This document shows, piece by piece, positions 7,763-21,417 of a stretch of 21,417 bases of DNA (position 1 is its first letter; each line of letters begins with the position of its first letter). The notes under the pieces are model-generated. The model did no database searches. It was given only the letters and a program-made list of their open reading frames with translations, and was not told the DNA's origin. Origin of the DNA: Candidatus Pacearchaeota archaeon (GTDB lineage: Archaea; Nanobdellota; Nanobdellia; Pacearchaeales; GW2011-AR1); assembly GCA_016234025.1 (NCBI GenBank), contig JACQLL010000037.1, positions 1 through 21,417 on the forward strand, written 5' to 3'. Position numbers and translations under genes: made by a program.

Positions 7763-7964
7763 TTATAGTGAACCAACTAAGTCTCTCGGTGTTGGTTCCC
7801 TAACACCAAGAATTCTGAAAGTTGAATTCTTGGATGCGCTCAAGAACCCGAAATCTTTGAGGGTTCTTGACGTAGTCTACCAATAAATAAAGAGAACGAA
7901 GTTCTCTAATCTTCGCTTCTCACGAAGCTTCAGAAAACCGAAAGATTAAATTGGTGGACTATAA
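7763..7964. repeat. structured intergenic element, copy 1
   Basis: A 200-base gene-free stretch dense in stems. The ends can pair: TTATAGT (7763-7769) with ACTATAA (7958-7964), and ACCAA with TTGGT inside. Stem A is GAACCAAC (7770-7777) with GTTGGTTC (7791-7798). Stem B is CCAAGAATTC (7806-7815) with GAATTCTTGG (7824-7833), loop TGAAAGTT. Stem C is TCAAGAACCC (7840-7849) with GGGTTCTTGA (7861-7870). TAGTCTACCAAT (7873-7884) can pair over 12 bases with ATTGGTGGACTA (7950-7961), enclosing AGAGAAC-GAA-GTTCTCT (7891-7907) and an AATCTT/AAGATT stem. Stems B and C recur near 21331-21397 with compensatory changes, so the fold, not just the sequence, appears conserved. It could be a non-coding RNA or a small palindromic mobile repeat; strand is unknown. 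Confidence 0.65.
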
Positions 7965-8111: not shown

Positions 8112-8486
8112 ATGGTTTTAAAAAAATTCAAAACAGGGCGCGGGCACACGGTTTCCTTAGAAAGAAGGTTTTATAATTATCTTTATCTGACGAGGTCTAT
8201 TGGAGGGGACTTGAGTAAAATTGAAAATGTCCCTGAAAAATTGTTGATTGAAATGGAGAATTTCATTAAGAGGAATTCTTTAATCAATCCTGCTTCCTTT
8301 ATTGACGGAAGTCCTGTATACTACTGCTGTCCGAAATGCCTGAAGGCATACTCATTGCAAACTATAAAGAAAATGAGTCTGGGCAAGGAAGTAAAAGAAT
8401 TAATTAAAGAGTTATTGATATGCGAGAGCGGGCATAATAATTATTTTATCGATGATGGCAACTTAAGATTTTTATTTGTTTCTTGA
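8112..8486 (+). CDS. small zinc-ribbon-like protein of unknown function
   Basis: A 124-residue protein with a likely metal site: CCPKC (Cys73 and Cys76, or Cys72) and CESGH (Cys104 and His108) form a Cys-x2-Cys ... Cys-x3-His pair 28 residues apart, with a helix between them (TIKKMSLGKEVKELIKELL). The N-terminal 60 residues are basic and helical (KKFKTGRGHTVSLERRFYNY). Such ribbons occur in DNA/RNA-binding or regulatory proteins, but the family is not recognised. The immediate upstream region has no TATA box at the usual distance; transcription from 7974-7983 is the best candidate. Its 3' end overlaps the convergent membrane-protein gene by 15 bases. Confidence 0.75.
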   Translation: MVLKKFKTGRGHTVSLERRFYNYLYLTRSIGGDLSKIENVPEKLLIEMENFIKRNSLINPASFIDGSPVYYCCPKCLKAYSLQTIKKMSLGKEVKELIKELLICESGHNNYFIDDGNLRFLFVS

Positions 8487-10412
8487 AGAGAAATTTCTTA
8501 TGAAGTCAGAGTGCTCGGAGCGGTCTGTGATTCTGTCCAAGACCCAGATGTTCTCTTCTTTCGGATGTTTTATTGATTTCACTTTTCCGGTTGTTTTTCT
8601 ATGGATTGTTTCTGAAAGGAAGACCTTTTCGTCTGCCTTGGATGACATTCTTTTTGCCGACGAGATTGTGTTGCCGGTCGAGACAAATCTGAATTTGCCT
8701 GCTTTTGATTCGACAATCAGGTTGCCTTCGTTAACACCTATTCCAAAATTAATTATTTTCTTTGAGCGTTTATTGTGTGTTTTCAACATTCTTTCTATTC
8801 CCTGTGCTATTGTTAATCCTTTCACAAGATTTTCTTTTTCTTTTGTCAGAAGTTGAGAGAGGACAATTATTCTGTAGTCGCCGTCGGAATAAATCTTTGC
8901 TCCTGCTTCTTTTGCCTTCCAAAGCGCTCTATCTAGTGACTCCGCTACTTCAGAATTGGTCAGAGTTTCCGGATTCTTCAAGTTCAATGAGATTATCACT
9001 GCTTCTTGTTTTTCTCCTTTGTCAATAAGATTTTTTGATTTTTCCGTACTTTCCTTGATAGTTTGAAAAGAACTTCTTCGCGAGATTATCTGCTTGCGCC
9101 GGAACAATCTTCTGAAAATGAATAAAGCCAGTGCGGCGATTATTAGGATTATAATTATCCATAAGAGAGTTGCGAAATTGCCGCCGAAGATTGATGAACG
9201 CAGGTCTTCAACAGATATAGCATTTCCTGTCAGGAAAATAGTTCCTAAAGTTTCTTTTTCTACGCCGTAGTTTGCTTCGATGTCATATTCTCCGTCGGGA
9301 GCAGACAGGGAAAATTTCTTTGTTTCACCGACGGGGATGTCTATTTCTTTTATGTCTTTTATCCCGCCAATTGAGACCTCGAGAGGCCCGGTGTATCTGA
9401 CATTGCCTATATTAAATATGACTAATGTTCTGTTTTCTAATTTGAAAGTTAGTTTTCGAAGTTCTTCGACAAGAAATGTCTTACTGCTTTGTATGTCCTG
9501 AAATTTAGTTTCGATTTCCCAGTAGCCCGGAGTGTAATTTAATTCTGTTTTAAAAGAATCTTTTTCCTCTGTTCTTGTCAATTTTTTCGAGAATTCTGTG
9601 CGGTCCGGAGTGTAGATAGTCAAGCTGACGTCTGCCTCTGCTGATTCCTTTGCCTGATCGTATACGATTATTTTGTAAGTCAGCTCTTCTCCCGGCGTGA
9701 TTGTCTGAGCGTCTACTGCAATGCTGATTCCTTTTATTATTTGCTTTATTCTTAATACATCAGCTGAACTGCCTTCGTTAAGCAGGACGTCGTTGTTGTC
9801 TTTTTCGTATGTTCTTGCTTTTATTTCGTAGCTTCCGGAGAATGCGTTGTCGGGGAGCGTGAAGTTTGTGTCGAATTTTCCTTCGGTGACCTCGCCTGTG
9901 AAAGAGAAATTTATGTTTTGGACGGAGATTTCAACGAAGCCATTTAATTGTTCTCCGTTCTTTTTTATCGCAGTGCCGAAGATGTTTACTTTGTCTCCGG
10001 GATTGAAGGCGGCTCCTTCGATGTTCAGAGAAAGGTCTATGCCTCTCGTTAATTCAAACAATTGGCTTGTTGCTTCTTCGTTGTTGTATTCTGTTTTTAT
10101 GAAACATTGTCCTGATAGGTTACCGACGATGAAATTTCCGAGAGAAGTAGACAGCGTTACCACCTGTTCTGCGTCTTTGTCAATTACATAAGGATTCTTG
10201 TAGATTTCGATTTCGCCGTTTTCACATCTTAAATCACCGACGAGGAAACCGCTTGAGTCCTTTTGCGGTCTAAGGGTTATTGTAATTGAGAAGTCGTCGC
10301 CGACGTTGTATATTGTTTCTGTCTGACCTAAAAGTATTTCTGCGGAAACTAATGAAGAAAGGAAAATTGTTAGAGCTATAAGGATAACTGCCTCTTTTGT
10401 CTTGATTTTCAT
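8472..10412 (-). CDS. membrane protein: extracellular beta domains plus degenerate class III nucleotidyl cyclase domain
   Basis: A 646-residue protein. Residues 1-24 are a signal peptide. About 25-400 is a string of beta-sandwich, Ig/CARDB-like segments (for example FNPGDKVNIFGTAIKKNGEQ and ITPGEELTYKIIVYDQ). About 413-434 is one membrane span (LLWIIIILIIAALALFIF) followed by the positive RRLFRRK, putting the C-terminus inside. About 468-605 follows the class III cyclase pattern: AVIISLNLKN (first metal-binding strand), KIYSDGDYRIIVL (second, Asp512 kept), FGIGVNEGNLIVES, and STGNTISSAKRMSSKADEKVFLSE. The first metal Asp is replaced by Asn (residue 477), and the transition-state Asn by Ser, so it is probably not an active cyclase and may be a regulatory or binding domain. 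The TATA box is shared in the divergent spacer with the HAD gene. No close family is recognised. Confidence 0.82.
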   Translation of the reverse strand: MKIKTKEAVILIALTIFLSSLVSAEILLGQTETIYNVGDDFSITITLRPQKDSSGFLVGDLRCENGEIEIYKNPYVIDKDAEQVVTLSTSLGNFIVGNLSGQCFIKTEYNNEEATSQLFELTRGIDLSLNIEGAAFNPGDKVNIFGTAIKKNGEQLNGFVEISVQNINFSFTGEVTEGKFDTNFTLPDNAFSGSYEIKARTYEKDNNDVLLNEGSSADVLRIKQIIKGISIAVDAQTITPGEELTYKIIVYDQAKESAEADVSLTIYTPDRTEFSKKLTRTEEKDSFKTELNYTPGYWEIETKFQDIQSSKTFLVEELRKLTFKLENRTLVIFNIGNVRYTGPLEVSIGGIKDIKEIDIPVGETKKFSLSAPDGEYDIEANYGVEKETLGTIFLTGNAISVEDLRSSIFGGNFATLLWIIIILIIAALALFIFRRLFRRKQIISRRSSFQTIKESTEKSKNLIDKGEKQEAVIISLNLKNPETLTNSEVAESLDRALWKAKEAGAKIYSDGDYRIIVLSQLLTKEKENLVKGLTIAQGIERMLKTHNKRSKKIINFGIGVNEGNLIVESKAGKFRFVSTGNTISSAKRMSSKADEKVFLSETIHRKTTGKVKSIKHPKEENIWVLDRITDRSEHSDFIRNFSSRNK

Positions 10413-20136: not shown

Positions 20137-21228
20137 CTATTGATCATCCTCGAGAAAGTCAATTCCGAGTTCGGATTCGAGGTCGCCTCTTGGGTTTGTT
20201 GCGAAGTCGGTTGAGCCGAGAATTTGCGAGCTTTTGACACCTGTTACGATGATCAAGACCTTTATTGTTTTTTCCATGTCAGGCGAAATTTGCGCTCCGG
20301 AGATTATTTTTGCGTCGGGAGATATTTTGTCGCCGAGGATTTCCATTACTTTTTTGTATTCTTCCAAGGACATGTCGTTGCCTCCTATTATGTTTACAAG
20401 AGCTCCTGTTGCGTTTTCTATCTTGACGTCGAGGAGAGGATTGTTTATTGCCCTTTCGACTGCTTCTCTTGCGCGGTCTTTTGAGTCGGATTCTCCTATT
20501 CCAATCAAAGAAACGCCTCCGTTGTTCATGACGGCTTTTACGTCTGCGAAATCGAGATTGACGAGTCCTGATTTCGTTATCAGCTCTGTGATTCCTTTTA
20601 CTGAATTTGTTAAGATTTCATCTGCGACTTTAAATGCGGTGTGGATTGGGAGCTCTGGAGCTATTTCGATTAGCTTGTCGTTGGGTATTACGATTAGAGT
20701 GTCGGTTATTGAGGCGAGTTTTTCAAGACCTCTTTGTGCGTTTTCTATTCTCTTTTGTCCTTCGACGGTAAATGGCAGAGTCACGACGCCGATCGTTAAT
20801 GCTCCTGATTTTTTTGCGATGTCTGCGACGATTGGGGATGCTCCTGTTCCTGTTCCTCCGCCTAGACCGCAGGTAATGAATACCATGTCTGCGTTGCTTA
20901 GTTTTTTCTTTATCTCCTGTTCTGATTCTTTTGCCGCCTGCTCGCCTACTTTTGGATTGCTTCCAGCGCCTAAACCTCTCGTTAGTTCTCTTCCTATGAG
21001 GATTTTTGTGTCGACGTTTGTGTAAAGAAGGTCCTGCGCGTCTGTGTTTATTGCTATAATTTCACATCCTTTTATTCCGATTTCTTTCATTCGTGAAACA
21101 GAGTTTCCGCCGCCTCCGCCGCATCCAATCACCTTCACTCTTGTTGCATGTTCCTGAAGAAGAGATTCTAATTCCTCGTCAATAGATTGAGTTTTTTGGG
21201 AGTCCTTTTCGACATATATATCTGGCAT
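20137..21228 (-). CDS. ftsZ: cell division protein FtsZ
   Basis: Tubulin-like GTPase that forms the division ring. Its 363 residues contain the nucleotide-binding glycine loop VIGCGGGGGNSVSRM (33-47), NTDAQDL (61-67), the tubulin signature GGGTGTG (123-129) and the T7-loop residues NLDFADVKAVM (224-234), whose Asp pair contacts the next subunit's GTP. After the globular core (to about 335) is a short tail ending LESELGIDFLEDD, a likely peptide for membrane-anchor proteins. It has the N-terminal extension IDEELESLLQEHATRVKV common in archaeal FtsZ. Only one ftsZ is in the window, and I do not assign FtsZ1 versus FtsZ2. Its own TATA box lies 26 bases before the ATG. Confidence 0.96.
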   Translation of the reverse strand: MPDIYVEKDSQKTQSIDEELESLLQEHATRVKVIGCGGGGGNSVSRMKEIGIKGCEIIAINTDAQDLLYTNVDTKILIGRELTRGLGAGSNPKVGEQAAKESEQEIKKKLSNADMVFITCGLGGGTGTGASPIVADIAKKSGALTIGVVTLPFTVEGQKRIENAQRGLEKLASITDTLIVIPNDKLIEIAPELPIHTAFKVADEILTNSVKGITELITKSGLVNLDFADVKAVMNNGGVSLIGIGESDSKDRAREAVERAINNPLLDVKIENATGALVNIIGGNDMSLEEYKKVMEILGDKISPDAKIISGAQISPDMEKTIKVLIIVTGVKSSQILGSTDFATNPRGDLESELGIDFLEDDQ

Positions 21229-21248
21229 AATAAAGACAAGAGGTAGAT

Positions 21249-21258
21249 GTTTTTAAGG
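21249..21258 (-). promoter_or_regulatory. TATA box of ftsZ
   Basis: Minus-strand CCTTAAAAAC is centred about 26 bases before the ATG at 21228. Confidence 0.55.
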
Positions 21259-21277
21259 ATTGTTATTGTATTTTGTG

Positions 21278-21417
21278 CTATAACGAGAGACCAAAATATT
21301 TCTCCATTGTTTTTTGTTCTCTCGAATACCTCAAGAATGCTGACAGTTGCATTCTTGACGGCCCCGAGAACCTGCGCAAAGCAGAAAAGGTTCTCGGTGT
21401 AGCAACTGACAATTTGG
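21278..21417. repeat. structured intergenic element, copy 2 (cut by window end)
   Basis: Homologous to copy 1 at 7763-7964. Stem A is CGAGAGA (21284-21290) with TCTCTCG (21318-21324). Stem B is TCAAGAATGC (21331-21340) with GCATTCTTGA (21349-21358), loop TGACAGTT. Stem C is CCGAGAACCT (21364-21373) with AGGTTCTCGG (21388-21397). GTAG and CAAT follow as in copy 1 (21399-21412). CAGTTGC (21344-21350) could alternatively pair with GCAACTG (21402-21408). The right half, where copy 1 has a 12-bp stem, lies beyond the window. Confidence 0.65.

Follow-up and report, generated by a model that had tools for sequence, protein, structure and literature searches.

A twin-hairpin repeat of Pacearchaeota-like archaea, probably a non-autonomous mobile DNA family with stem arms kept matched at the DNA level

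The window analysed here, the whole stretch of 21,417 nucleotides of contig JACQLL010000037.1 (assembly GCA_016234025.1, Candidatus Pacearchaeota archaeon), contains two homologous structured elements, each with two tandem hairpins whose stems can be read off the sequence. The second of them (copy 2) starts about 50 bases upstream of the start of an FtsZ gene (20137-21228, minus strand; the interval is window 21228-21279). The window also encodes, at 8472-10412, a protein that has an MG2 domain and weakly matches an adenylate/guanylate cyclase catalytic domain. The features of the two elements are as follows:

7764..7963, + strand: composite element copy 1, a TATA-ended palindromic element with a twin-hairpin module; full or partial copies in the genome have conserved TATA...TATA ends and different flanks
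7764..7802, + strand: left hairpin of copy 1's TATA-ended element, TATAGTGAACCAAC...GTTGGTTCCCTA, which occurs with and without the module
7804..7872, + strand: twin-hairpin module of copy 1, the inserted unit, 69 nt; match to covariance model R1 at 69.5 bits, and eight copies without the module
7806..7833, + strand: hairpin B of copy 1, 10 bp, loop TGAAAGTT; stem read off the window
7834..7839, + strand: spacer between the hairpins of copy 1, ATGCGC, from the listing of family twins
7840..7870, + strand: hairpin C of copy 1, 10 bp; stem read off the window
7873..7963, + strand: right part of the TATA-ended element with its terminal inverted repeat, TAGTCYACCAAT...ATTGGTGGACTATA; also found alone, without left part and module, e.g. 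at C2:65-164 and C13:153-244
21279..21417, + strand: composite element copy 2, in a different TATA-ended backbone and cut by the contig end; 26 matched pieces, and the backbone without the module at C81:5194, C69:6235 and C19:8637
21329..21399, + strand: twin-hairpin module of copy 2, 71 nt; insertion comparison, model match at 48.8 bits
21331..21358, + strand: hairpin B of copy 2; stem read off the window
21364..21397, + strand: hairpin C of copy 2; stem read off the window

Stems B and C have 10 pairs each in both copies, and five of the 20 pairs differ between copy 1 and copy 2 (B1 CG/TA, B9 TA/GC, C1 TA/CG, C3 AT/GC and C10 CG/TA), all of them on both arms and with no pair broken, just as a previous sequence-only reading of this DNA had described. 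Two other elements of that reading had to be reassigned. The GTAG...CAAT that it listed after stem C as a shared part of the structure opens the arm that belongs to the flanking element (copy 1, TAGTCTACCAAT; copy 2, TAGCAACTGACAAT) and lies outside the module, GTAG being found within 8 nt on the 3' side of stem C in just 7 of 99 twins. The supposed competing 12-bp stem (7873-7884 with 7950-7961) is the terminal inverted repeat of copy 1's flanking element, in which copy 1 carries T where most other copies carry C. The two-hairpin module itself, here called the twin, follows the consensus YCAAGAA...TTCTTGR, about 6 nt, YCAAGAA...TTCTTGR, i.e., two near-perfect hairpins in tandem over 69-71 nt, separated by a spacer that is usually 5-6 nt long and often NNGYNN (CGGCC in copy 2). 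The outer arms CAAGAA/TTCTTG are nearly constant, the inner arms covary, and the loop lengths vary widely.

Copy 1 is a mosaic: a left palindrome, then the 69 nt two-hairpin insert, then a right part that bears a terminal inverted repeat. In eight copies (C76, C51, C6, C13, C4, two in C26, and C88) the left and right parts are directly joined and the 69 nt are absent, with no duplicated bases at the module-less junctions, and three copy 2-type backbones likewise do not contain the 71 nt insert. The absence of the module, as a clean block, from these eight and three backbone copies indicates that the twin has been inserted into two distinct backbones, and the comparison of loci with and without it revealed no target duplication in either. 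Twins are also positioned centrally in other palindromes more often than by chance: a strong enclosing inverted repeat (score >=12) was found in 18 of 93 twins (six of the 99 were left out for short flanks), versus 4.9 % of 553 mismatched flank pairings. TATA-ended two-hairpin elements of the forms TATAGTGA-stem...stem-TCCCTA and TAG-stem...stem-CTATA have very different but self-matching stems, and a twin lies at the centre of such elements in two species (copies in the own genome, G000, and L235, L236 and L071 of G006). A longer composite, TTAATCCTTAGGAC-[twin]-GTTAAGTAATCG, is common to several genera at the sequence level (L240 1427-1480, L221, L224-L226 and L072).

Further copies are plentiful in the own genome and its relatives, and their similarity is far beyond chance. 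With copy 1 as the query, the own genome, which comprises 97 contigs with 0.66 Mb in total and is 75 % complete, yielded at least 56 matched pieces at about 40 places; not all of the pieces matched by copy 1 or copy 2 contain the module. Many contigs of this genome start or end in these repeats, by which the draft assembly was probably broken. BLAST against 93 genomes gave matches in seven, the own genome counted; the matches of the relatives G001, G006, G009, G017 and G037 include the module, and that of G046 lies in another part. A covariance model was built from nine sequences, excluding the first alignments A1 and A2, which had misplaced loops. At E <=0.001, it matched 40 of 181 genomes of the same archaeal family, in 25 of 87 genera, with four or more matches in 27 of the 181 genomes; 43 of 200 genomes had a match at the order level (family included), and 44 of 371 in a phylum sample, the matches being counted on both strands of a place. 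Presence is patchy even in the own genus, where four of ten genomes have twin matches. Of the genomes in the phylum sample with matches, 29 fall outside the order and 22 of these have one weak match each, which may be background, and such genomes are not counted as carriers. A narrow pattern search of named genome records returned 16 stretches in four MAGs, all named as Pacearchaeota or Nanoarchaeota, and plasmid records contained no match to copy 1. Carriage by viruses was rejected, since none of the three pattern matches in viral contigs was confirmed by the covariance model. No description of a twin-like repeat in Pacearchaeota or DPANN was found in the titles and abstract beginnings of the open-licence papers that the searches listed, and the family is apparently large and undescribed, residing in small uncultured archaea.

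Near-identical units occur in different flanks in G006, G210, G035 and G000. In 35 of 38 context rows (one of which repeats another's place) the twin lies outside predicted ORFs of at least 70 aa, and the neighbouring genes run in either direction relative to it. An array of about four hairpins, including twin-type ones, lies inside the Y1 transposase gene L114 (G000:C61, about 700-910); no other Y1 gene was found in this genome. The Y1 homologues in relatives read through as far as a stop and the usual kind of right end, and the own locus has such a right end beyond the array; the idea that the twin forms the right end of this genome's Y1 element was rejected, because the array is inside the gene and the relative-like right end lies further on. 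In G035 a twin sits in a 423 nt insert within the 23S rRNA gene (L211/L311). This insert also matches a group I intron, though weakly (20.5 bits against a curated cut-off of 50, E 0.06). A near-identical twin of the same genome (L210) lies between the 16S gene and a tRNA gene. The 23S gene is uninterrupted at the insert point in 5 of 11 relatives' loci under a strict pattern that the remaining loci did not match. Taken together, the dispersed copies with different flanks, the insertion states with and without the module, the nesting in other elements, the array within a transposase gene and the wide but patchy presence in relatives support a mobile repeat.

The pairing of the stems was assessed with 81 of 198 model matches (the better strand per place, repeated loci dropped), corresponding to 79 distinct twins, in which 158 two-sided stem changes stand against 8 one-sided changes. 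Watson-Crick pairs fill 1319 of 1330 cells, versus at most 0.835 in partner shuffles, a share inflated both by the preference of the set for high-scoring matches and by the choice of the fold with most pairs by the parser. G.T pairs are nearly absent (3/1330), as compared with 41/490 in 23 distinct tRNAs from the fetched loci. In 20 lower-ranked loci, 325 of 337 cells are Watson-Crick, with 2 A.C, 5 other and 5 G.T, two of the last coming from the misparsed row L260; hence neither sample has the wobble tolerance of RNA stems. Among the 27 own-genome copies near copy 1 there are 8 non-pairing or wobble cells, three of them from the badly gapped row L237, and 3 two-sided differences in 378 cells, and the corresponding numbers for the 19 copies near copy 2 are 3 and 1 in 317. 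In near-identical copies decay mostly affects one side at a time, and two-sided differences separate subfamilies.

The loops add a second line of evidence. L212 and L213 of G035, in the same orientation, hardly differ over a stretch of more than 80 nt except in the loops, which for both hairpins are mutual reverse complements. The loop of hairpin C is inverted between matching flanks in L193/L263 (G046) and in both L203 and L207 as compared with L208 (G210), and also across genomes in L191/L226. The argument from loop inversion rests on these five clean cases with matching flanks. Among 965 pairs of equal length that differ, 18 exact inversions were counted, whereas shuffled loops would give 1.3; four of these 18 involve L084 as read on its opposite strand, and some others have no homologous flanks. 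Overall, 303 loop pairs were direct, 27 inverted (>=85 %) and 170 other, most pairs being counted once per strand, with the L234 pair dropped for representing one place on both strands. Template switching in replication has been proposed to produce instantaneous two-sided stem changes and loop inversions, and complete loop inversions in RNA genes are reported to be found but very rare, according to the accessible part of PMC8794818.

From these comparisons of sequences, the twins are probably a non-autonomous family of mobile DNA repeats whose unit is the pair of tandem hairpins and whose arms are kept matched by copying at the DNA level. The arms would stay complementary because one arm is copied from the other during DNA copying: with the repeat single-stranded or extruded as a cruciform, a polymerase or a strand-transfer intermediate could switch templates and copy one arm from the other, and a single such step would change both sides of a stem or invert a loop. 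Lineages whose palindromes are intact would keep spreading, and resident copies would decay one side at a time. The spreading itself could depend on an enzyme that recognises single-strand hairpins and acts in trans, for which Y1 is a candidate.

The alternatives differ mainly in what maintains the fold and what moves the unit. The sequence-only reading had offered either a not yet described family of non-coding RNAs or a structured repeat that is mobile, and had taken the five double changes as a sign of selection on the fold; the dominance of two-sided changes is borne out in the larger set and the mobile repeat is supported, but selection on the fold is weakened by the few wobbles, the one-sided drift and the loop inversions. 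As a non-coding or cis-regulatory RNA family, the twins would be transcribed, selection would keep the fold and mobility would be secondary. The strong covariation would agree with this, as would the G035 twins in the 23S insert with its weak intron match and between the 16S and tRNA genes. In G142 (L241 and L268), three twins lie directly upstream of ribosome-binding sites, those of genes resembling FtsZ, Spt5 and L11 (names from reading the translations; the middle one of these twins was recognised by eye and stands outside the model's list), a fourth precedes another start codon and a fifth follows an Sm-like gene. The position just before ribosome-binding sites would fit a regulatory RNA there, and these leader twins may reflect domestication. 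However, changes in RNA stems commonly pass through G.U, which is nearly absent here; the model matches both strands at many sites, the near-identical own copies drift mostly one-sidedly, loops are inverted, and the adjoining genes lie in either direction. Rfam offers no family either: at gathering scores the window yields tRNA only, and at E <=1 none of the matches in seven other loci (L203, L210, L211, L214, L216, L239 and L240: two tRNA, two rRNA and three sub-threshold matches) overlaps a twin. An RNA family is thus unlikely to be the general explanation, and the wobble-free covariation together with the loop inversions argues for palindrome arms rewritten at the DNA level by template switching rather than for RNA selection, the covariation being best explained at the DNA level. 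A binding site for a dimeric transcription factor or for chromosome organisation could account for the nearly constant outer arms, but a fixed dyad needs neither widely varying loop lengths nor covarying inner arms, and such a site is extremely improbable.

As to the mobiliser, a Y1 (HUH, IS200-like) transposase acting in trans is the best candidate, one that we hold as a real possibility short of an expectation. Y1 was found in 18 of 28 carriers tested (of the 40 carriers) and in 26 of 56 genomes chosen regardless of the repeat, so no clear enrichment of Y1 is seen; the 10 carriers without a Y1 match are incomplete genomes and include G047, which is 90 % complete and has 20 twin matches. The model scan of 71 Y1 loci, some genes being present twice and some cut by contig ends, gave one strong match, in the interrupted L114, and three weak ones, and no twin at the end of a Y1 element. 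The arrays also hold hairpins with CTTTAG/CTAAAG loops that resemble those at the right ends of local Y1 elements, which keeps the Y1 idea alive. These hairpins, the palindromes, the absence of target duplication and the 18 Y1-bearing carriers would equally suit an IS200/IS605-derived palindrome-associated transposable element (PATE), with a Y1 element's left and right ends joined to give the hairpin pair. This derivation seems doubtful, as no twin lies at the Y1 ends of the scanned loci, the Y1 right ends examined look unlike twins, 10 of the 28 carriers have no Y1, and TnpB (PF07282) gave no match in G000, G001, G006 and G009, the four carriers of the own genus. The same result for TnpB led to the rejection of an omega RNA of TnpB as the identity of the twin. 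A REP/REPIN-type repeat of a RAYT (TnpA-REP) would share the hairpin pairs, high copy number and intergenic position, and REPs that are perfect palindromes do exist according to the available text of PMC8266576. Nevertheless, GTAG is as scarce after the twin as given above, GTAG or CTAC occurs on the 5' side in 8 of 99, and an identity based on this tag was rejected; Y1 genes were missing from those 10 carriers, and none of the 71 Y1 loci is a RAYT flanked by twins, the sole strong match (L114) being inside the gene. A REP/REPIN identity is therefore very unlikely.

Returning to the non-autonomous repeat preferred here, a bolder version can be proposed, which we regard as speculative and rather less likely than not to hold. 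The DNA would spread as a single-stranded or cruciform twin hairpin and rewrite itself in each round through loop flipping, arm-onto-arm copying and self-perfecting of its palindromes. The loop flipping would resemble the flip and flop known from genomes with hairpin ends. If this is true, 'covariation' would arise without RNA selection. Covariation is commonly taken as proof of selection on an RNA fold, and for RNA discovery pipelines the twin could be both a warning and a case to test against. For genome reconstruction, it represents a dispersed repeat of uncultured Pacearchaeota-like archaea that stands at many contig ends of this assembly.

Several known systems resemble the twin in part. 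The template-switch evolution of hairpins shares with it the two-sided changes and loop inversions from one DNA event, and is described, in the portion of PMC8794818 available, for RNA genes such as rRNA and microRNA, whereas the twin is a mobile DNA repeat. The REP/REPIN/BIME sequences with TnpA-REP are likewise short intergenic paired hairpins of high copy number and a possible single-stranded substrate of a transposase (PMC8266576, accessible part), but most twins have no GTAG tag, no linked RAYT was found among the Y1 loci, and the twin is archaeal. MITEs have terminal inverted repeats related to a known transposon and often a target duplication. The TATA-ended backbones are MITE-like in being short, multi-copy and bounded by terminal inverted repeats (with TATAG ends), while the twin has no shared terminal repeat of its own and no parent transposon or transposase was found for backbones or twin. 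PATEs are non-coding, palindromic and free of target duplication, as the twin is in its two backbones; their near-terminal palindromes match the ends of a host transposon of the IS605 type, and twins were not found at local Y1 ends (compared with the PATE description in the accessible text of PMC3119063). The SMR-A repeat of Haloquadratum, about 110 bp long and with its mobiliser given as unknown, also has inverted repeats, no target duplication and insertion into palindromes of other mobile elements, as far as PMC3119063 is available; the last trait is seen in the twins within TATA-ended halves and in the 18 of 93 with enclosing repeats. SMR-A is described there from one haloarchaeal species with highly similar copies, which sets the twin apart. 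Prominent terminal inverted repeats and members commonly >95 % identical mark SMR-A, whereas the twin is a unit of two separate hairpins whose structure is conserved over many genera and whose stems drift and vary between subfamilies. By the tests made, the twin is a member of none of the REP/REPIN, PATE and SMR-A repeats but akin to all three, and it is another instance of the 'who moves it' problem that the SMR repeats pose.
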